DNA from: Hyphomicrobiaceae bacterium
Lineage (GTDB): Bacteria; Pseudomonadota; Alphaproteobacteria; Rhizobiales; Xanthobacteraceae
Direction: 5' to 3'
Assembly: GCA_021324465.1 (NCBI GenBank)
Contig: JAJPJB010000081.1
Span: 1 to 40,997, forward strand
Length of the DNA stretch: 40,997 nt
The notes below the pieces were generated by a model that was not told where the DNA came from, ran no database searches, and saw nothing but the letters and a program-made list of their open reading frames with translations. Numbering within the stretch: position 1 is the first letter of the stretch; the number at the start of each line of letters is the position of its first letter. Position numbers and translations under genes: made by a program. Shown here piece by piece: positions 27,112 through 40,997 of the stretch.

Positions 27112-28074
27112 TCAGTTCTCCAGGCCTGTTGGAACGTTCTTGTTCTCGCTCTCAAGCTTCATGCCGGCCGCCAGTGCCATAGTCTCGGCCAAAGCGGCAA
27201 AATCCTTGGACAGATATTCTGCGGGATTTTTCTGCAGCATCGCGGCGCCGAAATGGCTCTGCAGCACCTCACGCGTCGCCGCGGTCACCGGCATCGGCAC
27301 GTCCATTTCGCGCGCGAGCTCAAGTCCGAGGTCGAGGTCTTTGCGCAGCAGTTCCGCCGTGAATGTCGTGGCCCAATCGAGGTTGACCAAAGCCGGAGTC
27401 TTGTAGGCGGTGAACATCGAACCCATCACGCTATTGTTGAGAAAAGCGAGAAAGGCATGCCGCGGCACACCCATTTTGTTGGTGAGCAGCGTGATCTCGA
27501 TCAGGTTCTCGATGACGACGCCGAGCATGACATTGTGGGCGATCTTGCAGACGCGCGCGAGCTCGCCTGCACCCACATAGGACACGCCGCGCGGCGCAAA
27601 GATTTCGATCAGCGGCATCGCGATCTTGCAGGCGGCCTCCGGGCCCGAGACGACGGAGGAGAGCTTGCCGGCTTTGATGACTTTGGCATTGCCGCTGACC
27701 GGCGCCGCGACAAAGTCGGCACCAAGCTCCTTAAGCTTGCGACGGATCGCCGCCGATTCTTCCACCGCGATGGTCGAGCAGTCGACGACGACCGGCGGCA
27801 TCTTGCCGCCCTGGCTGCACACGCCGTTCTTGCCGTAGAGCACATCCTGGACGTCCGCGCCCGTGGCAACGATCGAGAACAGCACATCCACAGACTTCAG
27901 GTCGGACAAGTGATCGACCACCTTGCCGCCTATCTTTTCGAGCGGCTCCGCCTTGGCTCTGGTGCGATTCCAGCAAGAGACGTCATGGCCTGCTTTGATG
28001 AGCCGCTCGGCCATCGGGTAGCCCATGCGGCCCATGCCGATCCACCCGATCTTCTGCGCATTCCTGGAGGCCAT
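27112..28074 (-). CDS. NAD(P)-dependent beta-hydroxyacid dehydrogenase (3-hydroxyisobutyrate dehydrogenase family)
   Basis: 320-residue dehydrogenase that oxidises a beta-hydroxyacid to the semialdehyde, or reduces it. The Rossmann motif GWIGMGRMGYPMAERL is near 10-25, the substrate-site APVSGNAKVIKAGKLSSVVSG near 123-143 and the catalytic Lys in AHNVMLG-type KIAHNVMLGVVIENL near 179-193. AAGGAG precedes the ATG at 28074; the longer frame to 28179 lacks support. It is the first gene of a two-gene leftward unit with the Bug protein and is divergent from the ABC permease genes (119-base gap). The exact substrate (3-hydroxyisobutyrate, tartronate, hydroxymethylglutarate) cannot be told. Confidence 0.88.
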   Translation of the reverse strand: MASRNAQKIGWIGMGRMGYPMAERLIKAGHDVSCWNRTRAKAEPLEKIGGKVVDHLSDLKSVDVLFSIVATGADVQDVLYGKNGVCSQGGKMPPVVVDCSTIAVEESAAIRRKLKELGADFVAAPVSGNAKVIKAGKLSSVVSGPEAACKIAMPLIEIFAPRGVSYVGAGELARVCKIAHNVMLGVVIENLIEITLLTNKMGVPRHAFLAFLNNSVMGSMFTAYKTPALVNLDWATTFTAELLRKDLDLGLELAREMDVPMPVTAATREVLQSHFGAAMLQKNPAEYLSKDFAALAETMALAAGMKLESENKNVPTGLEN

Positions 28075-28193
28075 TCTCAGCTCCTTCAGTCCGCCTGCCG
28101 GCAGATGCTCTAGCACAGGCCGCAAACACTGCAACGGCCGTATCGAGATCGCGTCTTGTGCCGCGCGACGGCGCAGCATTATGCTAAAGTGCC

Positions 28194-29048
28194 ATGCAGG
28201 ACCTCGTTGAGCGTCGCCAGCTGAGTCATGTCGCGGTTGCGGCGGGTGAGCAGCGTTCGGCGGCGGGGCGAGCGCATGTGCCGCTGCCTTGGCGGCGCGC
28301 TTGGCAGAATATTTTTCCGTTTATCGTCGTCGGCGGAATTTGGGAGATCGTCGCGCATCTCGGCCTGTTTCCGCGGCGCCTGTTTCCCCCCTTGGAAGCG
28401 GTCGCTCGCGCATTCATTCGCCTGACACTGAGCGGCGTCTTGCCGCATCACGCGCTCGATACCTTGCTCCGCCTCAGCGCCGGATTTGCGCTGGCCGCAA
28501 TCGTCGGTGTCACGATCGGCATCTTGATGGGACGGTCGCGCCGTGCCGAGGATATCTTTCTGCCGGTCATCAGTATCGGCGCACCGATTCCGGGGCTCGC
28601 TTATACGCCGCTCTTTCTGCTGTGGTTCGGGCTCGGCAATGTTGCCTCGGTGCTGCTCGTGGCCTTCGTGTCGGCCTTCCCCATCATCTACAATTCCTGG
28701 ACTGGCGTGAAAGCGGTGAAAGACATCTGGGTGCGTTCTGCGCATGCGATGGGCGCCGACGATCGTCGGCTGTTTCGGCATGTCATTCTGCCTGGCGCGC
28801 TGCCCTATATCTTGACCGGATTGCGCCTGGGCCTGGCGCAGGCCTGGCGCATCCTGGTTGCCGTCGAAATGCTGGCCGCCGTGCCATGGGGCCTCGGCTG
28901 GCTGATTTTCGGCGCCCGCGAATTTCTGGATACCGACGTGATGCTCGCGGGTATCGCAGTAATCGCGCTCATCGGGCTGGGCCTGGAGAAGCTTGTCTTT
29001 GAGCGACTCGAGCAATTCACGGTGGTGCGCTGGGGCATGATGACATGA
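28194..29048 (+). CDS. ABC transporter permease (SsuC/TauC/nitrate type), first copy
   Basis: 284-residue inner-membrane permease of the binding-protein-dependent family. About six helices follow a polar N-terminus of 40 residues. The EAA-type ATPase-contact loop is AHAMGADDRRLFRHVILPGALPYILTGLRLGLAQAWRILVAVEML (about 182-226). The ATG at 28194 has no strong ribosome-binding site; TATGCT at 28180-28185 could be part of a promoter. The stop overlaps the next permease start by 4 bases (ATGA). Substrates of this family include sulfonates, taurine, nitrate, pyrimidine precursors and phthalate. Confidence 0.92.
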   Translation: MQDLVERRQLSHVAVAAGEQRSAAGRAHVPLPWRRAWQNIFPFIVVGGIWEIVAHLGLFPRRLFPPLEAVARAFIRLTLSGVLPHHALDTLLRLSAGFALAAIVGVTIGILMGRSRRAEDIFLPVISIGAPIPGLAYTPLFLLWFGLGNVASVLLVAFVSAFPIIYNSWTGVKAVKDIWVRSAHAMGADDRRLFRHVILPGALPYILTGLRLGLAQAWRILVAVEMLAAVPWGLGWLIFGAREFLDTDVMLAGIAVIALIGLGLEKLVFERLEQFTVVRWGMMT

Positions 29049-29851
29049 CCGCCGCCGCTGATCATGCCGTTTTCCGCCGTTACGCCGCGCTGCGCCGCGG
29101 CATCCTCACGCTGCTCATTCTCGCCGGCGCTTATGAGGCCGTGGCGCGCAGCGGCTACTTCGCGCCGGCGCTGATGCCGACCCTCGGCACGGTGGCGCAG
29201 ACTCTGTTCGAGTCGCTTCGCGACGGCAGCATGATCGCGCATGCCGGGGCGACGCTGTATCGCGTGCTGGTGGGTTTCGCGTTTGCGGTCGCGATCGGCC
29301 TGCCTTTGGGCGTGATGATGGGCCGCTTTCGCCCCGTGGAAAATTTCGTGATGCCGCTGTTGAGCGCGCTAATGCCGATTCCCTCGCTTGCCTGGGTCCC
29401 GGTTTTCATTCTCTGGTTCGGGCTGGGCGACACGGTGGCGATCCTGATCGTGCTCTACGCCGCTTTGTTTCCGATGCTGCTCAATACCTGGTCGGGTGTT
29501 CGCGCCGTCAATCCGCTCTGGCTGCGTGCCGCCGGCGCGATGGGGGCGACCGAACGGGCGCTGTTCTGGAAAGTGATCATTCCCGGCGCATCGCCCTTTA
29601 TCATCGCAGGGTTGCGGCAAGCCTTTCTGCGCGCATGGATCGCGGTCATTGGCGCGGAAATGCTGGCGGCGTCGAATTGGGGGCTGGGCTGGGTGATCTT
29701 CGACGCCAAGGAGTTCTTGAACACCGATATGATGCTCGCGTCCCTTGTCGTTATCGGCCTGATCGGCTTTCTCACCGAGCGCCTGGTGTTCGGCTCGATC
29801 GAGCGCGCCACCATCTATCGCTGGGGCATGGCACGCGCAGCGAAGAGCTAA
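29045..29851 (+). CDS. ABC transporter permease (SsuC/TauC/nitrate type), second copy
   Basis: 268-residue permease, paralogue of the preceding one and coupled to it by a 4-base overlap. It has the same layout with EAA loop AAGAMGATERALFWKVIIPGASPFIIAGLRQAFLRAWIAVIGAEML (about 163-207). The pair would form a heterodimeric channel, whereas classic SsuC and TauC are homodimers encoded by one gene. The matching ATPase lies downstream at 31175, beyond an inverted Bug gene. Confidence 0.92.
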   Translation: MTAAADHAVFRRYAALRRGILTLLILAGAYEAVARSGYFAPALMPTLGTVAQTLFESLRDGSMIAHAGATLYRVLVGFAFAVAIGLPLGVMMGRFRPVENFVMPLLSALMPIPSLAWVPVFILWFGLGDTVAILIVLYAALFPMLLNTWSGVRAVNPLWLRAAGAMGATERALFWKVIIPGASPFIIAGLRQAFLRAWIAVIGAEMLAASNWGLGWVIFDAKEFLNTDMMLASLVVIGLIGFLTERLVFGSIERATIYRWGMARAAKS

Positions 29852-29998
29852 ATTAGCGCTTTGTTGTTTCCTCGGGCGCAACGCAGCACGAAATCAGCGC
29901 TGCAGGCCCGGGATAGTTACGCGCGTCGATCCTGCGAAGGTCCGCAACGGCGGCGTACCGGTTTCATGCCGCGCCGCGTCCGGGACGCGCGCGCGTGG

Positions 29999-31015
29999 TC
30001 ACTCCGACTTGATGTCGGCGGCCTTGATGACATCTTTGTACTTGTCGATCTCGCGCTGCACGAAAGCGGTGAACTGGTCGATCGACAAAGCGGCGATCTG
30101 CGCGCCGTCGTTTTCGAGCCGCGATTTGATGGCGGGCTCGAGCAGGATTTTGTTGATCTGCGTGTTGAGCCGCGCCGCCAGTTCCGGTGCAATGCCGTGC
30201 GGTGCGAAGAAGCCGACCCACAGCGTGAAATCGAAATTTGCAATTCCCGTTGCCTCGGCGACGGTCGGAATTTCAGATGCCGTTGGTGCGCGCTTGGCGG
30301 AGGAGACGGCCAACAGCTTGACCTTGCCGCCCTGCATCAGCGGTAACGCGGCAGGAAATCCAGGAAAGTAAAAATCGACCTGCCCGCCAACCACATCGTT
30401 CAACGCGGGAGCGGCGCCCTTATACGGCACATGCGTCATCCTGTTGTTGAGCTTGAGCTTCAGATATTCGCCGGCGAGATGGCCGGGAGTGCCGACGCCG
30501 GCGGAAGCGAAAGTGACGGGCTGTTGGGTGGTGCGCAGGAATGTGACGAAATCCGCCATGGTCGAATACGGCGCAGCTTCGGGGACGACCAGCGCCAGCG
30601 GCACCAGGCTGGCAAGCGCGAGCGGCTGCAAATCCTTCAGCGGGTTGTAGCCCGCGCCTTTCATGAAATACGGGTTGATGGCGATCTCAGGCGTCTGCGC
30701 GACCGTCATCGTATAGCCGTCGGGTGTGGCATTAGCGACATCGCGGGCGCCCACCGTGCCCCCGGCGCCGGGACGGTTTTCGACGATCACCGATTGCCCG
30801 AGCTCGGTCGAAAGCTGGCTGCCGACGATCCGTGCGACGATGTCTCCAGTACCGCCCGGGGCGAAATTGACGATCAAATGAATGGGACGGCTCGGATAGG
30901 CATCGGGCCAGGCCGGCGGCGCGGCAAGAGCAAGGCCAAGCATCAGCACAGCAGCCGAGATTGCGCGGACGGGGCAGTGGGCCAAAATGGCGCGAAGCGC
31001 GAGCAAGCATTTCAT
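29999..31015 (-). CDS. Tripartite tricarboxylate transporter-type (Bug) substrate-binding protein, inverted within the ABC locus
   Basis: 338-residue Bug protein. The signal peptide covers 1 to about 37 (AVLMLGLALAAPPAWPDA). The motif YPSRPIHLIVNFAPGGTGDIVARIVGSQLSTELGQSVIVENRPGAGGTVGARDVA is a textbook Bug N-terminus including the PGGxxD loop that grips the ligand carboxylate. PYKGAAPALNDVVGGQVDFYF is also typical. The frame extends to 31579 across the ATPase gene on the other strand, but the ATG at 31015 with AAGGGGGA upstream is clearly the start. It sits leftward between two rightward parts of one ABC transporter and shares a 159-base divergent promoter region with the ATPase gene. Confidence 0.92.
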   Translation of the reverse strand: MKCLLALRAILAHCPVRAISAAVLMLGLALAAPPAWPDAYPSRPIHLIVNFAPGGTGDIVARIVGSQLSTELGQSVIVENRPGAGGTVGARDVANATPDGYTMTVAQTPEIAINPYFMKGAGYNPLKDLQPLALASLVPLALVVPEAAPYSTMADFVTFLRTTQQPVTFASAGVGTPGHLAGEYLKLKLNNRMTHVPYKGAAPALNDVVGGQVDFYFPGFPAALPLMQGGKVKLLAVSSAKRAPTASEIPTVAEATGIANFDFTLWVGFFAPHGIAPELAARLNTQINKILLEPAIKSRLENDGAQIAALSIDQFTAFVQREIDKYKDVIKAADIKSE

Positions 31016-31106
31016 GGCCCGTTTCCCCCTTGTTCTGACTGATCGGCATCTGGCACAAAGCCTGCGCGCCGTCAGAAGCGCATAAAGGCATAAATTCCAA
31101 AACCTG

Positions 31107-31150
31107 CCCCGGACCGCAACCGGGGAAAATAAGGGTCTCGGCAAACCGAG
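31107..31150. promoter_or_regulatory. Two inverted repeats in the divergent promoter region
   Basis: CCCCGG-(7)-CCGGGG at 31107-31125 and CTCGG-CAAA-CCGAG at 31137-31150, both between the divergent Bug and ATPase genes. The first could be an operator that controls both genes; the second lies in the leader of the ATPase gene, about 25 bases before its ATG. No regulator gene is adjacent. Confidence 0.35.
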
Positions 31151-31174
31151 CCGGAGAGACGGGCGGAAAGGGCG

Positions 31175-31933
31175 ATGGCCCATATCGAGGCGCGCGACAT
31201 AACGCTTGTTTACGACACGCCGGGGCGCACCGTGCCGGGCCTGCGCGGCGTCAGCTTCGCCATGGAGGCCTCCGAATTTCTGTGCGTGGTCGGGCCGAGC
31301 GGGTGCGGCAAGTCGACGCTCCTCAATATCATTGCGGGCTTCCTGACGCCGACGTCGGGCGAAATTCGCATTGGCGGCGCGCCGGTCAACGGCTCGGGCA
31401 TGGACCGCGGCGTCGTGTTCCAGGACTTTGCCCAGCTGTTTCCCTGGCGCACGGCGCTCGGCAATGTCGCTTTCGGCCTTGAGATGAAGGGCGTACCCAA
31501 GGCCGAGCGTGAGGCCATCGCGCTCGAACAGCTGCGCCTGGTGAAGCTTGAAAATTTTGCAAAGTCCTATCCGCATCATCTATCCGGCGGCATGCAGCAG
31601 CGCGTCGCCATCGCGCGCGCGCTTGCTTACAACCCGGCGGTGCTGTTGATGGACGAGCCGTTCGCTGCGCTCGATGCCCTCACCCGCGACGACATGCAGC
31701 AGTTGCTCGCCGATGTCTGGCGGACGACGCGCAAGACGGTGATCTATGTGACCCACAATGTCGCCGAAGCGGTCTATCTCGCCGATCGCGTCGTGGTCAT
31801 GACCCCCCATCCGGGCACGGTCAAGACCGAACTTGCGATCAAGCTGCCACGGCCGCGTGATCCGCTGAGCGTCGAATTTCTCGGCTATCAAAAAGAGCTG
31901 CTGCATTTGCTGGGTCAGGAGAAACACGCGTGA
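31175..31933 (+). CDS. ABC transporter ATP-binding protein (SsuB/TauB/nitrate type)
   Basis: 252-residue ATPase. Walker A GPSGCGKST is at 40-48, the Q-loop in VVFQDFAQLFPW, the signature LSGGMQQR at 136-143, Walker B VLLMDE at 156-161 and the switch His in THNVAEA. The sequence is typical of the nitrate/sulfonate/taurine subfamily. GGAAAGG precedes the ATG at 31175. It would energise the permease pair at 28194-29851. Its stop overlaps the GTG of the next Bug gene (GTGA). Confidence 0.94.
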   Translation: MAHIEARDITLVYDTPGRTVPGLRGVSFAMEASEFLCVVGPSGCGKSTLLNIIAGFLTPTSGEIRIGGAPVNGSGMDRGVVFQDFAQLFPWRTALGNVAFGLEMKGVPKAEREAIALEQLRLVKLENFAKSYPHHLSGGMQQRVAIARALAYNPAVLLMDEPFAALDALTRDDMQQLLADVWRTTRKTVIYVTHNVAEAVYLADRVVVMTPHPGTVKTELAIKLPRPRDPLSVEFLGYQKELLHLLGQEKHA

Positions 31934-32937
31934 AATTGCCGCTTTTTGCCCCGCGCGGTCGCACCGCCATGCGGCGGTATCTTCTCATCGCATTCGCCGG
32001 CATCCTCGTTTCGGCGGCGCGCGGCGCCTTTGCGGAAGACAATTATCCCACCAAGCCGATCCGCCTCCTGGTGGGCTTCGGCGCCGGCGGGCCGACCGAT
32101 ATCCCGGCGCGGTACGTGGCCGACAAATTGAGCGATGCGCTTGGGCATCGTGTCGTGGTCGAGAACAAGCCGGCGGCGGCCGGGATCATGGCGACCCGCG
32201 ATCTGCTGGCGCAGCCGGCGGACGGCTACACGCTGCTTTTGTGCACCCATTTCGATCCGATCAACGTCGCAATGTATCGCAACGTCGGGTTCAAATTGGA
32301 TCAGCTCGCGCCGATCTCGCTGATAGCCGAATATTATTATGGCTTAGCGCTCGCCAATACGATTCCGGCGGACTCATTTGAAACTTTCGTCAGCTACGCC
32401 AAAGCACATCCCGGCGATGTCACCTATGCGACGATTGGCGCCGGCTCGGCGCAGGAGATCATGGCGCGGCAATTGCAAAAGCTGGCCGGCATCACCATGA
32501 ACCGGATTCCGTTTCGCGGCGGACCGCAAGTGGTGCAGGAGATGATGGCGGGCCGCGTCGATTTCTATGTCTCGCCTACTCTGGCGATTGTGCCGTCCTA
32601 CCGGGCCAAGCAGATCAAAATCCTGGCGACGACCAGTCCGCAACGCCTGGCCAATTTACCAGAAGTGCCGACCGTGCGCGAAAAAGGCATCGATTTTGTA
32701 CGCTTCGGCTGGCTTGGCATCTGCGCGGCATCCGGCACGCCGGCATCGATCATCAAGACGCTGCACGACAAGATTGTGCCGATCGTTGCCCAGCCGGACT
32801 ACCACAGTCTGATCGAAAATGGCGGGCAGATCGCGATCTCGTCGACGCCGCAAGAACTGAGCGCCGTAATCAAGAACACGTCGGATGACGTTGCCGCGAG
32901 CGTTCAAGAATTCGGCATGCAACAGGACCAGGAATAG
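31930..32937 (+). CDS. Bug-type substrate-binding protein encoded within the ABC operon
   Basis: 335-residue Bug-family binding protein. The signal peptide ends about residue 36 (AARGAFAED). YPTKPIRLLVGFGAGGPTDIPARYVADKLSDALGHRVVVENKPAAAGIMA is the Bug block, with the usual PGG replaced by GAGG. The GTG start at 31930 overlaps the ATPase stop by 4 bases, so translation is coupled; an ATG at 31972 is an alternative and would give a shorter signal peptide. A Bug protein coupled to an ABC ATPase is unusual, since Bug proteins belong to tripartite transporters, and the ABC locus has its own binding protein next to it. Confidence 0.88.
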   Translation: MKLPLFAPRGRTAMRRYLLIAFAGILVSAARGAFAEDNYPTKPIRLLVGFGAGGPTDIPARYVADKLSDALGHRVVVENKPAAAGIMATRDLLAQPADGYTLLLCTHFDPINVAMYRNVGFKLDQLAPISLIAEYYYGLALANTIPADSFETFVSYAKAHPGDVTYATIGAGSAQEIMARQLQKLAGITMNRIPFRGGPQVVQEMMAGRVDFYVSPTLAIVPSYRAKQIKILATTSPQRLANLPEVPTVREKGIDFVRFGWLGICAASGTPASIIKTLHDKIVPIVAQPDYHSLIENGGQIAISSTPQELSAVIKNTSDDVAASVQEFGMQQDQE

Positions 32938-32962
32938 AGCTGCGCAAGCGGGAGGATGAGCC

Positions 32963-33955
32963 ATGACGCTGATGACACTTACACGACGGCAGTGCCTCAC
33001 GGCTGCGAGCGCCGGCGTGCTGGCGGCGGGGTTTGGTACGACACGAGAGGCAAGAGCGGCGGAAACCATCCGCCAAGGCTACCAGACCAATATCTGGGGC
33101 ATGCCGACCTATTATTTGATGAAGTCCGGCTATCTCGAGAGGCACGGTCTCGCCGTTGAGCAATATCCGGTGCCGTCCGGCAACCTCACAATGCAGCAAA
33201 TGGTGGCGCGGCAGGTCGATGTCGGGACCTATGCCGCCCAGTCTTTCATCATCGGCAATGCCAAAGGTGGTTTGGTGGCCATCGCGCTGATCGAGCATGT
33301 CGGCAAGACCGCCCGCATTACCGCGCGCAAGGATCTCAATATCACCAAGGTCGAACAGCTGCGCGGGTTAAAGATCGCCAACCAGACCGGTTCGTCGGTC
33401 GGCAATGTCTTCGTCGACGTGATCGCCCCGCAGCACGGGCTTAAGAAGGGCGACTACCAGGAAGTCCGGATGGACGTGAACAATATGGTTGCCGCGCTCG
33501 CTGCCAAGACCGTGGACGCCATGGTCAATGTCGAGCCGTACAATGTTATTGCAGTCGCCGAGGGCATCGGCACCGACTTAATGGACTTTTCGAGTGTCGA
33601 TCCGATGCCGGTCTTCATGGCGGCGACGCCGGATCTCGTCGCGCAAAAGCCGGACGTCGTCGTGGCCTATCTCAAAGCCTGGCTCGACGCCGCCAAGGAT
33701 TTCAAGAACAATCCGAAAAAGGTCGCCGATGTGATCTATTCGTTCTACACCGGCAAGGGATACAACATGTCGCTCGACACGTTCTCGCAGGCGCTGTCGC
33801 GCGTCGAAGTCGATCCCGGCTTTCCGACCGATCTCGTACCCTATATGCAGCAGCAGGCGGAAATTTTGATGCAAAGCAAGCTGATCAATGCCGTTCCGGA
33901 TTGGCGCAAGGCGCTGCGCCCGGACTTCATGGAGCGCGCCCGTAGCGGAGCCTAA
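32963..33955 (+). CDS. ABC transporter substrate-binding protein, NMT1/nitrate-sulfonate type
   Basis: 330-residue periplasmic binding protein of the SsuA/TauA/NMT1 family, the expected partner of the ABC permeases and ATPase here. The N-terminus has a twin-arginine sequence TRRQCLTAASAGVLAAG (7-23), suggesting Tat export. Typical parts are TNIWGMPTYYLMKSGYLERHGLAVE, VARQVDVGTYAAQSF and TVDAMVNVEPYNVIA. GGGAGG precedes the ATG at 32963. Relatives bind nitrate, aliphatic sulfonates, formylaminopyrimidine or aromatic acids. Confidence 0.9.
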   Translation: MTLMTLTRRQCLTAASAGVLAAGFGTTREARAAETIRQGYQTNIWGMPTYYLMKSGYLERHGLAVEQYPVPSGNLTMQQMVARQVDVGTYAAQSFIIGNAKGGLVAIALIEHVGKTARITARKDLNITKVEQLRGLKIANQTGSSVGNVFVDVIAPQHGLKKGDYQEVRMDVNNMVAALAAKTVDAMVNVEPYNVIAVAEGIGTDLMDFSSVDPMPVFMAATPDLVAQKPDVVVAYLKAWLDAAKDFKNNPKKVADVIYSFYTGKGYNMSLDTFSQALSRVEVDPGFPTDLVPYMQQQAEILMQSKLINAVPDWRKALRPDFMERARSGA

Positions 33956-33999
33956 GGCCGATTGTCGAACCAGAGAAGAATTGAACAGGAGAGAGAGGA

Positions 34000-35241
34000 A
34001 TGTCGGTCGCCGAAAACAGCCCGCTGACCAAGGGCTATCAACCGGTAATCTGGAATTTCAAGCTCTTGGCGCACGACATGCTCGCGGGCTTCGGCGGCAT
34101 GGGTGAGGGCATGTCGGTGCAGATCGCCCCCGACGGGCGGCGCATCATCTGGCTTGCGCATGAGAGCGCGCCGAAAAATTTTACCGCGGTCGATGTCAGC
34201 GATCCGCGCAAGCCGAAAGTGGTCTGCCAGACGGATCTGCCGCATGCCAATATGCGATCGAACTCACTGGAGACCTGCGGCAATCTAATGGCCGTTGCCT
34301 ATCAGACCTCCAAAAAGAATTCGCAGCCTGCCGGTTTCGAGCTGTTCGACATTTCCAAGCCGGAGAATCCGAAGTCGATTTCCTTCTTCGACTGCTCCGG
34401 CCCGCATTCGCGCGGCGTGCACCAGCTGTGGTTCTGCGACGGCGAATATGTTCATTGCTCGTCGGGTTCCCGCGATTTCGTGCCGACGCACCCGCTCGAT
34501 GATCAGTTCTATCGCTGTATCGATGTGCGCAATCCGTCGAAGCCGGTCGAGGTCGGCCGGTGGTGGATGCCGGGCACGCGCCAGGGCGACAACGTGATGC
34601 CGCCGTCGCGGCATCCGATCGACAAGGGGTTCCGCGCCCACAATTGCAACGTCTATCCGCAGCGCGGCGACCGCTGCTATCTCGCCTATATTGACGGCGG
34701 CATGTTCGTGCTCGACATTTCCGACAAGGCCAATCCGAAAAAAGTGTCGTCGTGGACCAATTCACCGCCCTATACCGGCTTCATGCACACCATCGTGCCG
34801 CTGTTCGACCGCGGCCTGATGCTGATCACCGACGAGTCGACGGAGAACAACGCCAAGGACTGGCCGAAGCTGATCTGGGTGCTCGACGCCCGCGAGGAAA
34901 CCAATTTGGTGCCGATCGCGACCTGCCCGCTGCCCGATCCGGCTGTCTACGCTCAAGCCGGCCGTTTCGGCGCGCATAATATTCATGAGAACGTTCCGCT
35001 GCCCACGGCGTGGCATTCCGATCAGATCGTGCTCGGCACCTTCTTCAATGGCGGCTTGCGGGCCTACGACATTTCCAATCCGTATCAGCCGAAGGAAGTC
35101 GGCGTGTTCATGCCGCCGGCGCCGCCCGGCGCGCCGACCGGCACGATCCAGATGAACGATGTCTTTGTCGATGAGCGAGGCATCGTTTATGCCGTCGATC
35201 GCCATGTCGGCGGGCTGTACATTCTGGAGATGGATTTCTGA
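34000..35241 (+). CDS. LVIVD-repeat beta-propeller protein with recurring histidines
   Basis: 413-residue protein without signal peptide, built of repeats of about 45-60 residues that each contain a strand like FELFDISKPENPK, MFVLDISDKANPK or LRAYDISNPYQPK, the LVIVD propeller repeat. A His recurs where each repeat re-enters the body: H82 (PHANM), H141 (GVHQLW), H214 (AHNCNV), H263 (MHTIVP), H326 and H329 (AHNIHEN). Such an array could bind a metal on the propeller axis, as the four His do in carotenoid oxygenases; this is inference. AGAGAGGA precedes the ATG at 34000. A metallochaperone GTPase follows after 9 bases. No function is established for close relatives known to me. Confidence 0.78.
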   Translation: MSVAENSPLTKGYQPVIWNFKLLAHDMLAGFGGMGEGMSVQIAPDGRRIIWLAHESAPKNFTAVDVSDPRKPKVVCQTDLPHANMRSNSLETCGNLMAVAYQTSKKNSQPAGFELFDISKPENPKSISFFDCSGPHSRGVHQLWFCDGEYVHCSSGSRDFVPTHPLDDQFYRCIDVRNPSKPVEVGRWWMPGTRQGDNVMPPSRHPIDKGFRAHNCNVYPQRGDRCYLAYIDGGMFVLDISDKANPKKVSSWTNSPPYTGFMHTIVPLFDRGLMLITDESTENNAKDWPKLIWVLDAREETNLVPIATCPLPDPAVYAQAGRFGAHNIHENVPLPTAWHSDQIVLGTFFNGGLRAYDISNPYQPKEVGVFMPPAPPGAPTGTIQMNDVFVDERGIVYAVDRHVGGLYILEMDF

Positions 35242-35250
35242 TCGCGACCG

Positions 35251-36282
35251 ATGCTCGACCTTTTCCCCTCGCGCGAGGCCGGCCCGTTCGGGCGGCGGCT
35301 TAAGCGCGAGCGCGGCGCGCGCATTCCGGTCACCGTGGTCACCGGATTTCTCGGCGCCGGCAAGACGACACTGATCCGCCGGTTCCTGCAATCGCCGGAC
35401 GGCGCCGGCACCGCGGTGATCGTCAACGAGTTCGGCGCGGTCGGTATCGACGATGCGCTCATTCGCGACAGCGCCGAAGAAACCGTTCTCCTTGGCAATG
35501 GCTGCGTCTGCTGCATCACCCGCACCGATTTGCAGCTGGCGCTGCGCCGGCTCGTTTTTGACCGCGAGCGCGGCACGGTTCCGCCATTCGGCAGGGTCAT
35601 CATCGAAACGTCGGGTCTCGCCGATCCAGGGCCGATTCTGCAGACGTTCTCGACCGATCGCGCGCTCGGCGGCGAATTCCATATCGATGTCGTGCTTGCG
35701 GTCGTCGATGCCGTCAATGGCAGAGCCGAGCTGGAGAGCGCCGCCGAGGCGCGCAAACAGGTTATCTTCGCCGATCGGCTGGTGATCTCAAAGGCCGATC
35801 TCGCGACCGAGACGGCGGTCGGCACTTTGACACGCCGCCTGAGGGTGCTCAATCCGCGCGCGGCGATCGACATCGCCGTTGCCGGCGCCCTTGAGCCGAG
35901 CCATATCGTCGAGCCGACCACGAGCGAACGCAGCGGCTTTGTCGCTGAAGCCGAGCACGGTGACGGCATTAAGAGCTTTGTGATCGTACAGGATCAGCCG
36001 GTCGACTGGCAGATATTCTCCCGGGCGATGGAGACGCTGATCGCACTGCGCGGCGCGGATCTCCTGCGCGCCAAAGGCATTCTCAACGTCGCAGGCTGCC
36101 GCGGCCCGGTCGTTGTGCAATATGTGCAGCATCTATCGCATCCGCCGGTCGAGCTGGAACGTTGGCCGGCTTCTGACGATGATCGCGTCAGCCGCCTCGT
36201 GTTCATCACGCGCAATATCGCCGAAGGCGACGTCACGGGGTTGTTTGCGGCGGTTGCCGCGCTTGCCAAGACTCAGAGCTAA
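35251..36282 (+). CDS. CobW/COG0523 family G3E GTPase, putative metallochaperone
   Basis: 343-residue GTPase. The P-loop GFLGAGKT is at 32-39, the metal-binding CxCC motif GNGCVCCI at 83-89 (Cys85, 87, 88), ETSGLADP supplies the G3 region and SKAD the G4 base motif. A C-terminal CobW_C domain starts about residue 235 (IKSFVIVQDQPVDWQIFSRAMETLI). Family members deliver Zn, Co or Fe to client enzymes. Coupling to the LVIVD gene (9-base gap) and the facing amidohydrolase operon suggest a local client. It lacks the His-rich tail of many Zn chaperones. It is convergent with the Rieske gene, 27 bases apart. Confidence 0.92.
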   Translation: MLDLFPSREAGPFGRRLKRERGARIPVTVVTGFLGAGKTTLIRRFLQSPDGAGTAVIVNEFGAVGIDDALIRDSAEETVLLGNGCVCCITRTDLQLALRRLVFDRERGTVPPFGRVIIETSGLADPGPILQTFSTDRALGGEFHIDVVLAVVDAVNGRAELESAAEARKQVIFADRLVISKADLATETAVGTLTRRLRVLNPRAAIDIAVAGALEPSHIVEPTTSERSGFVAEAEHGDGIKSFVIVQDQPVDWQIFSRAMETLIALRGADLLRAKGILNVAGCRGPVVVQYVQHLSHPPVELERWPASDDDRVSRLVFITRNIAEGDVTGLFAAVAALAKTQS

Positions 36283-36312
36283 TTCACGCAAGGCAAGCTA
36301 GCTGTGAAGCTA
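36277..36312. terminator. Possible bidirectional terminator between CobW-type and Rieske genes
   Basis: AGCT..TTCAC (36277-36287) pairs with GTGAAGCT (36304-36311), with a 3-base bulge. An AGCTAGCT palindrome lies within the loop. The structure spans both stop codons of the convergent genes. No T-tract is present, so the call rests on position and symmetry alone. Confidence 0.3.
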
Positions 36313-36678
36313 GTCCGGCACGCTGACGTAGATTTTGCCGTCACGGACGGCGACCGGCACCGGCGTCAGGCGCACCGACGCGTCGCCCGGATGGCAACCG
36401 GTGGCGAGATCGAACTCATAGCCGTGCCAGGGGCAGACGATGTGGCGCTGCTTGCCAAATCGCAGCCCAGCGCTTTTTTTATCCGACGTGATGATCTCTT
36501 CGACCTGATGAAAAATCTTGCCCTGGCAAACCGGGCCGCCGGCGTGCGGACAGATGTTTTCGTAGGCCAGCACCTTGCTGCCAGTGCGGAAGATGCCGAC
36601 TTCGAGATTATCGAGGGCAAAAACGCGGTAATCGCCGTCGGCGATATCGCTCAGCTTCCCGACTGCAACTTCCTGCAT
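36310..36678 (-). CDS. Rieske [2Fe-2S] ferredoxin-like protein with expanded cluster loop
   Basis: 122-residue soluble Rieske protein for electron transfer. The first cluster motif is CPHAGGPVC (Cys43, His45) and the second CPWHGYEFDLATG (Cys82, His85). The gap between them is 36 residues where about 15-17 is usual, because KIFHQVEEIITSDKKSAGLRFGKQRH is inserted. VRLTPVPVAVRDGKIYVSVP is the normal C-terminal strand pair. I start at the ATG at 36678, with AGAAGG nine bases upstream; a GTG at 36708 would overlap the preceding stop (GTGA) and add 10 residues. It is the third gene of a leftward operon. No oxygenase alpha subunit is present. Confidence 0.88.
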   Translation of the reverse strand: MQEVAVGKLSDIADGDYRVFALDNLEVGIFRTGSKVLAYENICPHAGGPVCQGKIFHQVEEIITSDKKSAGLRFGKQRHIVCPWHGYEFDLATGCHPGDASVRLTPVPVAVRDGKIYVSVPD

Positions 36679-36704
36679 AGACATCCACCTTCTGTGCTGC
36701 TCCG

Positions 36705-37076
36705 TCACTCAATTCCAGGCGGGCGATGAAACCAGATCGCCACGTCGAACATGTTGAGATCGGCGGCGCGGATCATTCCGCAGGCGGTCACTACAGTCTC
36801 GGTCGCGGTCACGGCGCCATGCGGGAACGGTGCGAGGTTATGGCCGCGCCGCTCGACTTTTGCGGCATAGAGCTTTACCGCCGCGGAAAGTATCCGCTGC
36901 AGAGCAGCATCAGAAATCGCGTCGGGCTCGCCGCACTTGAGCGCCGCGCGGGCAGCGGCGCAAAAGTCTGTGCCCTGATTGCCAGGCTGGCTGCTCGCGA
37001 TTTGTCGGCGCGACCTCGTGCCGCCTCGCCCAGCGGCGACGGACATGCGCTTGGCCGCTTTGCGAGCCTTTACCAT
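36705..37076 (-). CDS. Conserved hypothetical protein between amidohydrolase and Rieske genes
   Basis: 123-residue protein of unknown function. The N-terminal 40 residues are basic (MVKARKAAKRM...), and the conserved-looking part (about 52-120) is ISDAALQRILSAAVKLYAAKVERRG followed by AVTATETVVTACGMIRAADLNMFDVAIWFHRPP, mostly helical and reminiscent of a small family I have seen beside Rieske and amidohydrolase genes. I start at the ATG at 37076, 17 bases after the amidohydrolase stop; the frame is open further inside that gene. It overlaps or abuts the Rieske gene, so the three genes form one operon. It could be a subunit or scaffold of the enzyme; this is inference. Confidence 0.7.
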   Translation of the reverse strand: MVKARKAAKRMSVAAGRGGTRSRRQIASSQPGNQGTDFCAAARAALKCGEPDAISDAALQRILSAAVKLYAAKVERRGHNLAPFPHGAVTATETVVTACGMIRAADLNMFDVAIWFHRPPGIE

Positions 37077-37093
37077 GCGAGAATTCTTGCCGC

Positions 37094-38416
37094 TCACGCC
37101 GTTACCGCCACGCGACTCGCCGGCTCCCTGCTGCTCTTGATCAGCTTGTGTTTTGGAATTTCCAAGTTGAACAGACGCGCTGCGTTCAATCCCAAAATAT
37201 TGCGCTTTGCTTCCTCGTCCAGGAACGGCAGCGTGGTGATGGAAGACGGCAGATCGAAATCCCAATGCGGCCAGTCCGAAGCAAACAAGAGCTGCGTCTT
37301 CGCTTTAATCGCGTCAAAGGTCGCCTCGGTGAGCTGCATATTCGAGCGCTCCAGCGGCTGGCTGGTGAAATACATGTCGGCGATATATTCGCTCGGCCGG
37401 CGCTTGAGCAGCGGCGCTTCCGACGAGCGCATCATGTACTCGGAATCAAGCCGCTGCATCATGAACGGGACCCAGGCGAGCCCGCTTTCGATCCAAAGCA
37501 CCTTAAGCTTCGGAAAACGTTCGGGAAGGCCGTTGATGATCCAGTTCGTCAGATGAATCATGTTGAAGTAGACGAACGAGATCGAGTGCATGGAGATGAA
37601 ACGGTTGCACTGCTGCATCGACTGGTCGCCCCAGTGGAAGCCGGAATGGAAGGCCAGCGGCTTTCCGGTCGCCTGAATGGCCGAGTAAAGCGGCATATAG
37701 CTGTCGTGATTGACCGCGCGGTAGCGTGTCGACGTGACCGAGTAGCCAATGACGCCCGGCGTATCAGCGTATCGCTCCACCGCTTTGACACTCTCCTCCG
37801 GATGATTGAACGGCAGATACAACATCGCCTTGATACGCCGGTCCTGTGGTAGAATCTCCTCCGTCAGCCATTTGTTGAAAGCGTTGCCGATTGTCACTTC
37901 CATTTCGATCTGCGGGTGCATCCCGAGCACCAGCATTGGCGTCGGAAACACCACCATGTAGTCAATGCCCATGGAATCCATGGCGCGCCGGACGAGTGTC
38001 ACCTGCGCGTGCGTGCGGCCGCCCGGCACCGGCTCGCCAAGCCGCTGCTGATGGGGAATGCGGCCGAACACATCCTGATGCAAAAACCCCGGTGTGGCAT
38101 TGAGCAGGCCCGGCGGCGAGCCGCCACGCTCCTTAAAGGCGCGCGCCATCTGCCGATAGACATCGCTGTCCATGCGATCGACGATTTCCGACCAGAACGC
38201 CGTCTCGGTGACATGAGCATCGACGTCGACGATCAAGTAATCGTGCGCTTTGGCGTCCTTGGCCGCGTGAGCCAGAATGTGGCGCGTGTCGGTGAGATTG
38301 TTGATCTTGGGCAGCACGGCGACGCGCGCGGTGTTCTTGCCATTCTTACTGCCGTTTCTGCCGGCGGCCGGTATTTTATTGCGACCGTTTCCGGTGCGCG
38401 GCACTCTTTTCAACAT
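37094..38416 (-). CDS. Amidohydrolase-2 family metal-dependent hydrolase/decarboxylase
   Basis: 440-residue TIM-barrel enzyme of PF04909 (ACMSD/gamma-resorcylate decarboxylase-like). After a basic, probably disordered N-terminus of about 60 residues comes strand 1, LIVDVDAHVTE (Asp66 and His68 in place of the common HxH). LAFHSGFHWG follows (His257, His261), then LWIESGLAW, and LLFASDWPHWDFD with the strand-8 Asp381. Such members hydrolyse amides/lactones or decarboxylate aromatic or unsaturated acids. GGAGG precedes the ATG at 38416. It leads the operon with the hypothetical and Rieske genes and faces the metallochaperone, a likely source of its metal. The substrate is unknown. Confidence 0.9.
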   Translation of the reverse strand: MLKRVPRTGNGRNKIPAAGRNGSKNGKNTARVAVLPKINNLTDTRHILAHAAKDAKAHDYLIVDVDAHVTETAFWSEIVDRMDSDVYRQMARAFKERGGSPPGLLNATPGFLHQDVFGRIPHQQRLGEPVPGGRTHAQVTLVRRAMDSMGIDYMVVFPTPMLVLGMHPQIEMEVTIGNAFNKWLTEEILPQDRRIKAMLYLPFNHPEESVKAVERYADTPGVIGYSVTSTRYRAVNHDSYMPLYSAIQATGKPLAFHSGFHWGDQSMQQCNRFISMHSISFVYFNMIHLTNWIINGLPERFPKLKVLWIESGLAWVPFMMQRLDSEYMMRSSEAPLLKRRPSEYIADMYFTSQPLERSNMQLTEATFDAIKAKTQLLFASDWPHWDFDLPSSITTLPFLDEEAKRNILGLNAARLFNLEIPKHKLIKSSREPASRVAVTA

Positions 38417-38622
38417 CGGCGTCCTCCACTCGGCAAACATTCTTGGCAGCGGCGGCGGCCAAGGTCTATCGGCCGGCCGCGGCTTTGCGCCAAGCCTAGC
38501 AGCAATTGCGCCGGATGCACGTGAAACTCGCGCTGCCGTTGACCCTTCGTGGAGCCGGGTGCTAGCGTCCGACAGCGATTTTTCCTGCGGTGCAAAGCAG
38601 ATGCAGCCGGTCGCTGTTCGTC

Positions 38623-39480
38623 ATGAAACTCCCGCCATTTGAGTATGCCTGCCCCGCGACAATAGCTGAAGCGGTTGCTCTCTTGGCCGCACATAACGGC
38701 GAAGCCAAGCTTCTCGCCGGCGGCCAGAGCCTGCTGCCGATGCTCGCCTTTCGTGTTGCGGCGCCATCGCTGCTTGTCGATCTGGGAAAGCTCTCTGAGT
38801 TGCGGCAGATCAGAGTCGCGGACGAGGGGGTTACCATCGGTGCGATGGTACGCTGGCGCGACGTTCTCGCGCATGCGCAATTGCACGCGGCGCACCCGCT
38901 CCTGGTCGCCGCCGTCCAGCACGTCGCGCATCATCAGATCCGCAACCGTGGCACGATCGGCGGCAGCCTCGCTCATGCAGACCCGGCAGCGGAACTGCCG
39001 GGCGTCGCGGTAACCTGTGATGCGGATATCACTGTAGTCGGCAGGGCCGGCGAACGCGTGATCGCGGCGCGCGATTTCTTTCGCGGTCCGCTGATGACGG
39101 CGCTGAAGGCGGACGAGATCATCACCGAGGTCCACCTCCCGGCCTGGCCGGCACGGCGGCGTTTTGGCTTTTGCGAGTTCGCCCGCCGGCGGGGCGATTT
39201 TGCGCTTGCGGCGGCGGCGGTGTTTTATGACCCGGATGGCGCCGGCCATGTCCACAATGCCCATATCGGCGCCATTGGCGTCGCCGATGCGCCTTTGCGG
39301 CTCGCGCAAGTCGAACTCGTCATCAACGGTCGCGCGCTGGATGATGCGACGATCGCGAGGGCCGAAGCGGCCGCCTCGGCCGCGGTTGATCCGGCCGATG
39401 ACATTCACGCCAGCGGCGCCTACCGCAAGCACCTGATCGGCGTCATGGTCGAACGCGCGCTGCGCAGTGCTGCGGGGTGA
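38623..39480 (+). CDS. FAD-binding medium subunit of a molybdenum hydroxylase (CoxM/CutM type), orphan
   Basis: 285-residue FAD subunit of the xanthine oxidase/CO dehydrogenase family. The two FAD motifs are AGGQS (32-36, AGGQSLLPML) and TIGGSLAHADPAAELP (111-126). The C-terminal CO_deh_flav_C domain has RRRGDFALAAAAVFY. It passes electrons from the Fe-S subunit to FAD in complete enzymes. The frame is open to 38590, but the ATG at 38623 matches the family start (MKLPPFEYACPAT). Neither the small 2Fe-2S subunit nor the large Mo subunit is next to it: the next gene is on the other strand after a repeat. Confidence 0.9.
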   Translation: MKLPPFEYACPATIAEAVALLAAHNGEAKLLAGGQSLLPMLAFRVAAPSLLVDLGKLSELRQIRVADEGVTIGAMVRWRDVLAHAQLHAAHPLLVAAVQHVAHHQIRNRGTIGGSLAHADPAAELPGVAVTCDADITVVGRAGERVIAARDFFRGPLMTALKADEIITEVHLPAWPARRRFGFCEFARRRGDFALAAAAVFYDPDGAGHVHNAHIGAIGVADAPLRLAQVELVINGRALDDATIARAEAAASAAVDPADDIHASGAYRKHLIGVMVERALRSAAG

Positions 39481-39570: not shown

Positions 39571-40548
39571 CTAGCCGTAAGTTGGCACGAACAGCTTCTC
39601 GATCGGGATGGGTGCGGCGATCAGGCCCTGCTCGACCATGTAAGTCACGAGCGCTTCGAGCGTCGGACGGTTCGGCTCGACGCCGTACGGCCAGCAATCG
39701 CCGCCGAACAGCGCGTCGATCTCGGCCACATGGTCGGGCAGCCACGGCAGCATGTAGCGCAGCGTCCCGGAGTTCCGCATTTTCTCCCAGGCCCGGTCTT
39801 TAGCGGCACAGAGGGCGTTGTACAGGCTGGTCGCTACAAACGGGTGGCGCTCATAAACATCGTTGCGGATGACGATCAGGTGCATGATCGGAAAGATTCG
39901 GGTGCGGCGGAAATAGTCCTGCTCGCGCGCCCGGAAATCCGGGAACAGCCGCATCACGTCGGGATGCCGGTTGAGCGCGCGCGGCAGGTTCGAGCCGATG
40001 ATCGCCTGAATCTCGCCGGCAGCCAGGAGATCGCTCAGCGACTTGCCGCTCCGGTTCGGCGTGATCTTGGCCGGCCCAAGCAGCGGCATCACGGCAGGAT
40101 TGCCATAGCCGCCGGGCTCATTGACCGCGCCCTGCACCCACTCGATGGTCGACAGATCGATGCCGAGATCGTGCTGCATCAAACCGCGCACGAAGATGGC
40201 GGCGGTCTGGGTGTAGAGCGGCACGCCGATCCGCTTGCCGGGGAGGTCCTTGGGCGAGGCGACGAACTTGCGGTTCACCACGATGAAGCCGTGGCGGAAG
40301 ACGCGCGAGGCGAAGACCGGCAGCGCCACAAATGGGAGTTTCTTTGCGGCGAAGCGGCTGATGAATTCAGACGCCGACATCTCGCAGGCGTCGAATTCGA
40401 GCCGGCTGGACATGCGATCAAAGATTTCCCGTGGATTGTCCATGACCAGGAAGTTGAGATCGATACCGTCGGGTTTGATCTCGCCAGTCTGTAGCGCGAG
40501 CATGCGGTCATAGAGGCCGCAGGCAAAAGTCATCGGCAGAGCGGGCAT
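39571..40548 (-). CDS. 4,5-dihydroxyphthalate decarboxylase-like / NMT1-like protein
   Basis: 325-residue protein of the Pht5-like family, which has a periplasmic-binding-protein fold. LPMTFACGLYDRMLALQTGEIKPDGIDLNFLVMDNPREIFDRM at the start and EFDACEMSASEFISR, FVALPVFASRVFRHGFIVVN follow the pattern of 4,5-dihydroxyphthalate decarboxylases. There is no signal peptide, so a cytoplasmic enzyme or ligand-binding role fits better than ABC uptake. The ATG at 40548 is preceded by AAAGG; a GTG directly before it is possible. Many proteins of this family lack proven decarboxylase activity, so the function is open. It is convergent with the CoxM-type gene. Confidence 0.82.
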   Translation of the reverse strand: MPALPMTFACGLYDRMLALQTGEIKPDGIDLNFLVMDNPREIFDRMSSRLEFDACEMSASEFISRFAAKKLPFVALPVFASRVFRHGFIVVNRKFVASPKDLPGKRIGVPLYTQTAAIFVRGLMQHDLGIDLSTIEWVQGAVNEPGGYGNPAVMPLLGPAKITPNRSGKSLSDLLAAGEIQAIIGSNLPRALNRHPDVMRLFPDFRAREQDYFRRTRIFPIMHLIVIRNDVYERHPFVATSLYNALCAAKDRAWEKMRNSGTLRYMLPWLPDHVAEIDALFGGDCWPYGVEPNRPTLEALVTYMVEQGLIAAPIPIEKLFVPTYG

Positions 40549-40997
40549 CACAGCACCTTTGCAAAGCGTTCGCGGAGTGGCGCCTGCGCACCTATCACGG
40601 CCGCGCTGCCCTCGTCATCTCGCGCGTCGCGAGCGGCGCAATGCTCCCCGCAGAGCGCCTCAAGGCCTCCATGCGTCGTACCTCGCTCGCCGGTCCGCAC
40701 GACAGGCGCAAAAAATTTCAGCCATCGCGTCGTTTTTTCTTGCAATGCATGTTGAGGGCGCCTATGTGCCGCTCGCCCAAATTCGCACGTGCCTGTGGCC
40801 GTGTGTCGATCGGTAGGCATCCGGACAAGAGGCCGGACAGTCGCCTGAGGTTGGCCCTGAAGACTCCGCGACGGAGACTTTGGTTTAGTCGCCTCACTAC
40901 GTGATCGGCAGCCGGAGGCGAAACCGGCGCACCCCGCGCTCAACGGGGGACGCGGCTTAAAGCAACGACGGAGCGGGCTTTTTTGGTCTCGTTGGCT
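40549..40997. other. Gene-poor right edge
   Basis: 449 bases up to the window edge without a convincing gene. A leftward frame of 131 codons (40548-40943) is poor in family resemblance and lacks a ribosome-binding site; it would end with a one-base overlap into the next gene, which is its only support. The 40864-40985 part holds several hairpins and a T-tract and is listed separately. A 7-base direct repeat CCGGACA occurs at 40821-40827 and 40833-40839. Confidence 0.5.
40864..40985 (+). ncRNA. Possible small structured RNA or compound terminator
   Basis: Three perfect 5-base-stem hairpins in a row on the + strand: CTCCG/CGGAG (40864-40876), GCCGG/CCGGC (40911-40928) and CCCCG/CGGGG (40932-40948). 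GAGCGGGC and a run of six T (40979-40984) follow. GAGCGGG (40971-40977) can also pair with CCCGCGCTC (40933-40941), which gives a terminator-like alternative fold. No match to tRNA, 4.5S RNA, tmRNA or RNase P RNA was recognised. It could be the 3' end of a small RNA, or just a terminator for an unknown + strand transcript. Confidence 0.22.

Follow-up and report, generated by a model that had tools for sequence, protein, structure and literature searches.

A probable junction of two independent catabolic units in a Hyphomicrobiaceae genome: a predicted dinuclear monooxygenase with a small partner protein and an import unit with an LVIVD propeller

Amidohydrolase-related oxygenases (AROs) are a recent class of oxygenases with Fe2 or Mn/Fe sites, most of which are annotated as hydrolases. 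The window analyzed here, the whole 40,997-nt stretch of contig JAJPJB010000081.1 of a Hyphomicrobiaceae bacterium, encodes a predicted ARO with a small protein and a Rieske ferredoxin (module B, 36310–38440); these genes face an ABC importer, an LVIVD propeller and a COG0523 GTPase (module A, 27112–36282). The best explanation of the region, to which we assign a probability of about 0.77, is that two conserved catabolic units, independent of each other, meet here, most likely brought together by chromosome rearrangement in this lineage, module B being a multicomponent ARO-class dinuclear monooxygenase and module A an import-and-catabolism unit. Of interest are the small partner protein of module B and module A as a conserved unit, of which no description was found in the literature searched.

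Among the described systems closest to module B is the alpha-aminoisobutyrate monooxygenase AibH1H2GF of Rhodococcus wratislaviensis, whose hydroxylase likewise has the amidohydrolase superfamily (AHS) fold and the six identical metal ligands, and whose operon also includes a gene for a Rieske ferredoxin. According to PMC7782822 and PMC12141560, the ligands of AibH2 are D25, H27, H211, E265, D337 and H340, and the Asp which marks a binuclear site is D342. AibH2-like genes co-occur with a small Rieske protein in 90% of cases and otherwise have "few co-occurring proteins" (PMC10401708). SfbO and the AROs 8SM6–8SM9 (PMC10811679) are PF04909 proteins which, like that of the window, are encoded with a small Rieske protein. 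No small partner protein is mentioned in the portions of text consulted of PMC10401708 and PMC10811679. In contrast to AibH1H2GF, no AibH1-like AHS subunit or AibF-like reductase was seen beside the window ARO; a 123-residue protein is encoded there instead.

The effectors of diiron monooxygenases (MmoB and TmoD) offer a second comparison, being small proteins whose genes accompany those of a dinuclear hydroxylase and sometimes that of a Rieske ferredoxin; the window oxygenase differs in having a TIM-barrel and not a four-helix fold. For module A the closest systems are Sb-PTE, a haloalkylphosphorus hydrolase of Sphingobium sp. TCM1 (5HRM, 5IOJ), and the COG0523 metal insertases, for example the nitrile hydratase activator. 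Sb-PTE shares the propeller fold of the LVIVD protein at 15% identity in the fold alignment, whereas the LVIVD protein is usually encoded beside a COG0523 GTPase; nothing indicative of phosphotriester metabolism was noticed, no search having been aimed at it. As among the insertases, a CxCC GTPase adjoins the gene of a presumed metalloenzyme client; unlike theirs, the client here is a propeller.

Gene company of the two units

Every gene named in the original prediction was found in its place by an open reading frame check of the window, and the families of the importer, LVIVD, GTPase, amidohydrolase, hypothetical and Rieske genes were confirmed. On the + strand, module A comprises an ABC ATPase (31175–31933; TauB/SsuB/NtrCD-like by Pfam and NCBIfam scan), an optional TctC/Bug binding protein (31930–32937; Pfam TctC, E 9e-52), an NMT1/SsuA-type ABC substrate-binding protein (SBP; 32963–33955; Pfam NMT1, with an SsuA_fam match of 119.8 bits, under the cut-off of 163.5), the LVIVD propeller (34000–35241; family scan and AlphaFold2 (AF2) model) and the COG0523 (CobW-family) GTPase (35251–36282; Pfam cobW and CobW_C, CxCC motif GNGCVCC). 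The gaps between these five genes are −4, 25, 44 and 9 bases. Upstream of them lie a 3-hydroxyisobutyrate-dehydrogenase-like oxidoreductase (HIBDH; 27112–28179, − strand, start uncertain), an 88% identical relative of which has Pfam NAD_binding_2/NAD_binding_11, and two ABC permeases on the + strand, permease 1 (28194–29048) in the order seen in relatives and permease 2 (29045–29851) with homologues in LVIVD loci. A further TctC/Bug binding protein (29999–31012, − strand, Pfam TctC, start uncertain), a variable member, stands between permeases and ATPase.

Module B is read from the − strand and its three genes overlap one another: the PF04909 (Amidohydro_2) protein, a predicted ARO by Pfam and by homology to solved AROs (37094–38440), the small partner protein (36705–37097) and the Rieske [2Fe-2S] ferredoxin (36310–36708; Pfam Rieske), the presumed electron donor. 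The small protein has 123 residues from an ATG at 37076 and 130 from a GTG overlapping the previous stop; its C-terminal ~80 residues are conserved. The modules are convergent, with only 27 bases (36283–36309) between the two stop codons, as had been noted.

Module B was searched for in 101 genomes, the window's own and 100 relatives. The amidohydrolase gave 91 places in 30 genomes at E <= 1e-60 and the small protein 56 places in 28 genomes at E <= 1e-4; all but two of the 56 small-protein places have an amidohydrolase place no more than 500 bp away on their own strand (54/56), and 54 of the 91 amidohydrolase places have the small protein within 500 bp. In the 19 module B loci fetched (4.2–20 kb) the small protein is always adjacent and the Rieske gene adjacent in 18, the nineteenth (L116) having a Rieske-like fragment at the contig start. 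The order is amidohydrolase – hypothetical – Rieske in Aminobacter niigataensis and Rieske – hypothetical – amidohydrolase in Neorhizobium petrolearium, Mesorhizobium sp. L-2-11 and Salipiger profundus. The three genes are a conserved unit, in agreement with the tight operon originally proposed. A second, diverged ARO – small protein – Rieske unit lies on contig C65 of the window's genome (L101 9303–11527).

The first LVIVD search found the protein in 24 of the 101 genomes at E <= 1e-60, and 20 stretches of 6–20 kb were fetched around its better places. With a shared order, these carry a CobW homologue (18/20), the SBP (13/20), the ATPase (12/20) and both permeases (10/20). When the LVIVD alignment was run against the GTDB genome collection, 448 places were confirmed, of which the best 80 were kept, a choice leaning to near relatives; the 80 loci are 4.1–21.3 kb long (median 15.0) and include short contigs. 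Counted by tblastn at no less than 45% identity, the CobW homologue is present in 56 of the 80, the ATPase in 46 (42 at 75% identity or more, the other four at ~50% and from other importers), the SBP in 43, permease 2 in 32 and permease 1 in 30. Importer, LVIVD and GTPase are thus a conserved unit, and the proposed coupling of these + strand genes holds; the unit extends further upstream than first described, since the permeases and the HIBDH-like gene (23/80) travel along in relatives. The Bug protein of 31930 is found in 7 of the 80 loci, and genes similar to the TctC/Bug gene of 29999 in 9.

Downstream of module A, relatives often carry an IorAB-like molybdenum hydroxylase (IorA 21/80, IorB 18/80), a coenzyme A (CoA) transferase (subunit A 32/80, subunit B 27/80) and Gfo/Idh/MocA dehydrogenases (Gfo1 23/80, Gfo2 18/80). 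Gene clustering of the 80 loci added MTHFR-like genes (19 loci), GST (15), M24 peptidase (9) and MetE-like genes (8), the last named through a relative, Y, described below. The MTHFR-like gene can lie inside module A, as in L140 (12267–13172), and together with the MetE-like genes it suggests one-carbon transfer. An HD-domain-like protein (Pfam HD just below cut-off; for example L128 1666–2526) occurs in 6 of the 80 loci, its gene lying just upstream of the ATPase where seen.

The original prediction had read the importer, LVIVD, GTPase, amidohydrolase and Rieske genes as a single metabolic module with a shared substrate, and had proposed a gene-neighbourhood search as the check. That search separates them, and the refuting condition named with the prediction, that these genes seldom occur together in other genomes, speaks against a single module. 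None of the amidohydrolase, small-protein and Rieske genes was found in the 20 LVIVD loci, nor any close homologue of the three in the 80 (0/80, for the small protein by profile as well), and neither LVIVD nor CobW was detected in the 19 module B loci at E <= 1e-4. Distant PF04909 relatives (24–29% identity to the window ARO) are present in four of the 80 LVIVD loci (L166, L169, L180 and L183), without Rieske or small protein. Modules A and B are conserved separately, and not together in the loci examined.

The LVIVD–GTPase pairing did not hold as a family-wide rule: among 16 loci of distant homologues (31–35% identity by tblastn, 14 of the loci only 2.9–4.2 kb long) a CobW homologue was present in one, from an Erwinia plasmid. 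In an Erwinia persicina plasmid (L204 6965–8684), a CobW-like stretch in which no gene is annotated comes after the LVIVD homologue. Plasmid records matching LVIVD number 46, including 12 from Rahnella and 10 from Erwinia. In L194, L195, L197, L198 and L199 the genes upstream of LVIVD differ in kind from the ABC importer; they encode a TctA-like protein in the first four (one gene cluster), a Bug-like protein in all of them and a CoxL-like molybdenum hydroxylase in L195, L198 and L199 (all three named by eye). No description of the module A unit was found among the listed titles and abstract openings of literature on the LVIVD repeat, on LVIVD/CobW/amidohydrolase/beta-propeller combinations or on ARO, SfbO and Rieske ferredoxins, and passages from the main text of PMC2770081, on COG0523, do not use the word LVIVD.

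The LVIVD propeller

The AF2 model of the LVIVD protein, built with 72 sequences (pLDDT 92.3, pTM 0.91), has 29 strands and fits seven blades. No signal peptide was visible by eye. Residues E36, H141, H214, H263, H326 and N386 are invariant in the 72 rows, and each is the third residue of a strand in the model. Because they are spaced like the first strands of six blades, these residues should ring the propeller axis, and a metal site on the axis is probable. H141, H214, H263, E279 and H326 are kept in eight more distant homologues.

In a Foldseek comparison of the model with the PDB, Sb-PTE ranks first (5HRM; E 1.9e-13, with TM 0.66 by query and rmsd 5.8), ahead of generic WD40 chains, the next other structures, at ~1e-8. 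Sb-PTE is also the best match by sequence (E 2.5e-6). LVIVD residues H263, E279 and H326 align with 5HRM positions 302, 320 and 388, which are 389, 407 and 475 in 5IOJ (offset 87). We take H389, E407 and H475 of 5IOJ to be metal ligands of Sb-PTE. H326 falls within the best-scoring stretch of the alignment, and the stretch with H263 and E279 was marked insignificant by HMMER.

The LVIVD protein might instead be a metal-dependent oxidase or oxygenase, similar to methanethiol oxidase or the carotenoid oxygenases, and not a hydrolase. Its four invariant His at matching spots of consecutive blades resemble the arrangement in carotenoid oxygenases, there is a weak NCBIfam match to methanethiol oxidase (MtoX/SBP56), and on a plasmid of Rhizobium sp. 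NXC24 (L205 3833–9582) a distant homologue adjoins an ABC importer and an SfnB-family sulfur-acquisition gene. We consider this rather unlikely, since Sb-PTE is clearly the best match in both fold and sequence and the MtoX score (family NF052453, 21.2 bits) is far below the cut-off of 650.

Origin of the junction

The missing second half of module A is on contig C95 of the window's genome (L100 4741–14649), where one strand carries X (a GMC oxidoreductase), Y (MetE-like), IorA, IorB, CoA-transferase A, CoA-transferase B, Gfo1 and Gfo2; the set from IorA to Gfo2 is that half. In the congeners, CobW is followed directly by IorA in L121 (G007), L124 (G010) and L164 (G001), and after intervening genes in L120, L123 and L050. 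The end of X adjoins the Rieske gene in L103 (G004) and L109 (G007); in L102 (G010) X is absent, but DNA beyond X follows Rieske. Both G007 and G010 keep CobW–IorA and keep module B apart from A. Because the missing half of A sits by X, which abuts Rieske in congeners, rearrangement best explains the junction. The change from CobW|IorA and X|Rieske to CobW|Rieske and X..IorA, with the matching partner junction on C95 at L100 12837/12868, requires two breaks plus an account of Y. A broken IorB on C95 was considered and rejected; the TGA seen ends IorA just upstream, and the IorB frame is open for 764 residues.

It is improbable that the contig ends were wrongly joined during assembly and that the modules are not neighbours in the organism. 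The genome is a draft in 107 contigs, the arrangement was seen in this genome only among the loci examined, and the partner junction contains the extra gene Y, all of which would suit an error. Against it, a single biological event would account for both of the complementary junctions on the two contigs, and the longest exact stretch common to the two junctions is at most 12 bp, which speaks against an assembly swap via a repeat.

The predicted oxygenase, its small partner and the proposed roles of the two units

The protein of 37094–38440 belongs to PF04909 (E 7.8e-24, 85.4 bits, cut-off 26.4). Its five best PDB relatives are all AROs (E-values from 1e-38 to 1e-24), namely 8SM7 (E 1.1e-38), which is the closest solved relative by sequence, 8SM6/SfbO, 8SM9, AibH2 (6M1W_B, E 1.6e-26) and 8SM8. 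The equivalents of the six AibH2 ligands are D74, H76, H265, E318, D389 and H392, with D394 as the marker Asp, and all seven are invariant in 13/13 aligned relatives; D74 and H76 lie beyond the stretch aligned by HMMER and were placed with the help of the DxH motif, and the AibH2 chain numbering was checked for H211, E265, D337, H340 and D342. Because the six ligands and the marker Asp are kept and a Rieske gene is adjacent, the "amidohydrolase" of the original prediction is most likely not a hydrolase but a dinuclear oxygenase of the ARO class that the Rieske protein supplies with electrons. Neither flanking gene is a PF04909 member that could supply a tandem second, mononuclear AHS subunit, and no AibF-like reductase gene was found among the scanned neighbours of module B.

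That module B is a PF04909 hydrolase or decarboxylase with an accidental Rieske neighbour would accord with the Pfam label and with the presence of ACMSD and 5-carboxyvanillate decarboxylase among the weaker PDB matches. With AROs including AibH2 as the five top matches, the ligands and marker Asp kept throughout the aligned relatives, and Rieske adjacent in 18/19 loci and in 20/23 of the class-wide places given below, this is very improbable.

The small protein had no match in Pfam or NCBIfam scans. A single-sequence AF2 prediction gave three helices at pLDDT 54 and was not used as evidence. Profile matches of 19/19 and 4/4 are circular, the profile having been built from those sequences. A 20-row profile was run on a class-wide sample of 385 genomes and gave 25 places in 17 genomes, two of them in the window's own genome. 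Of the 23 others, 22 have an ARO no more than 600 bp away on the same strand, and 20 have both ARO and Rieske. The orders are Rieske–small–ARO (15), ARO–Rieske–small (4), ARO–small (2), small–Rieske–ARO (1, taken as a domain-edge artefact) and Rieske–small (1). This steady company combined with shuffled gene order argues for a working partnership of the small protein and the ARO.

From 98 ARO loci, chosen and not random and with a few places included twice, 121 AROs were obtained. Of these, 52 are accompanied by the small protein (one of them also by a tandem ARO) and 38 by a tandem ARO without the small protein. The second-metal motif is present in one copy and missing from another in 17 of 18 tandem loci, as in AibH2 and AibH1. 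A quick maximum-likelihood tree of 115 different ARO rows, for which the tool warned of long branches, places all 53 small-protein rows, the window's included, on one side of 83 rows (SH-aLRT 100); the 32 8SM7/AibH-like rows include no small-protein row. The small-protein label changes 10 times on the tree compared with a shuffled mean of 38. The window ARO lies in a supported group of 36 rows, 34 of which are small-protein rows, and its branch is well separated from the 8SM7-like rows; 26 of 31 tandem rows fall in the 8SM7/AibH-like branch. The 123-residue protein is a regular partner of one ARO branch. As a universal ARO partner it was rejected, since 12 loci of the 8SM7/AibH-like branch (3.1–3.9 kb long), whose AROs usually have a second AHS subunit, gave no match to it, and neither did part of the sister branch; as it is common and not universal, losses or several gains have to be supposed.

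The gene company of module B is suggestive of aromatic compounds. In Aminobacter, module B is followed by a LigB-type gene, a 4-carboxy-4-hydroxy-2-oxoadipate aldolase gene and a PobA-type gene, and the gene after Rieske is of the FAD aromatic-hydroxylase type. Genes similar to Pht5 (4,5-dihydroxyphthalate decarboxylase) lie near module B in 4 of the 19 loci (L102, L103, L104 and L115) and in Salipiger (L203), and in 1 of the 80 LVIVD loci. In the window the gene so named in the original prediction (39571–40551, − strand) had no match in Pfam and NCBIfam scans, and the name was not confirmed. An aromatic or carboxylated substrate, as originally suggested, is plausible for module B and not for module A. 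Between the Pht5-like gene and module B is a lone FAD (CoxM-type) subunit of a molybdenum hydroxylase (38590–39480, + strand, Pfam/NCBIfam scan) with no L or S subunit genes adjoining; a CoxM-type gene also adjoins module B in congeners L102 and L103. It was rejected as a leftover of the module A molybdenum hydroxylase, because that enzyme is IorAB-like, with its genes on C95, and because blastp against 22 sources (the window, L009 and L032–L051) returned only the self-match.

Several observations weigh against two independent units joined by rearrangement and against the roles proposed for them. Among 81 genomes outside the genus, five have both A and B, eight A only, one B only and 67 neither (p 2.7e-4), and in G053 both units are on one contig, ~18 kb apart. 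In G009 a Pht5-like gene with 80% DNA identity to the window's lies upstream of module A (L132 4876–5856); this gene therefore moves between neighbourhoods. Y stands between X and IorA on C95, and a search of 17 congener loci did not find it at either place. Neither congener has a complete X, which is present as 105 residues at the contig start in L103 and as an 88-codon remnant in L109, and six of nine congeneric B loci, some of them short contigs, gave no match to the X side. Of the 121 AROs, 22 have Rieske only and nine have neither partner, and the Pfam scan of module B neighbours revealed no reductase gene.

The co-occurrence check proposed originally gave a divided result: LVIVD and amidohydrolase overlap above chance outside the genus, but A co-occurs equally with amidohydrolase (ARO) paralogues (p 8e-5), so the association is not specific, and within the genus (20 genomes) the overlap is not significant (p 0.18). 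The tests ignore the relatedness of the genomes, and co-occurrence across the 101 genomes was rejected as support for an A–B link. That A imports a compound which B oxidizes, in one metabolic module, is very improbable and was rejected on neighbourhoods and the partner junction: the 27-base spacing within one window, the overlap outside the genus and the G053 contig speak for it, and the absence of any locus with both units among the 80 LVIVD and 19 B loci, a junction that looks derived, the equally strong paralogue signal and the convergence of the two operons speak against it.

For two independent units, the following roles are proposed. In module B, electrons would pass from NAD(P)H through a reductase encoded elsewhere to the Rieske ferredoxin, which would reduce the metal site (Fe2 or Mn/Fe) of the TIM barrel; O2 would then be activated and a C–H bond of a small, perhaps carboxylated aromatic compound hydroxylated. 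The 123-residue protein may bind the oxygenase and shape or gate its metal-binding loop, a role that has been suggested for AibH1, the second AHS subunit of AibH1H2. In module A, the substrate would be imported by the ABC importer and the COG0523 GTPase, a presumed metal insertase, would metallate the LVIVD propeller. The axial His/Glu site of the latter probably carries one or two metals and may perform hydrolytic, Sb-PTE-like chemistry, to be followed by oxidation and CoA transfer.

More tentatively, the 123-residue protein may be the first member of a family of small proteins that act as partners or couplers of dinuclear monooxygenases with a TIM-barrel fold. It would replace the AibH1-type subunit and keep the metal loop of the oxygenase in its functional form, giving a second ARO architecture (ARO, small protein and Rieske); module A would, independently, be an undescribed pathway with a GTPase-metallated propeller enzyme.

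The small regular partner gene is a sequence tag for one ARO branch in the Alphaproteobacteria, and it offers a way to test why a second AHS subunit is required by some AROs. The LVIVD–COG0523 pair names a likely client for this group of metal insertases. The case also shows how, when one genome is viewed by itself, a rearrangement can pass for a new pathway.

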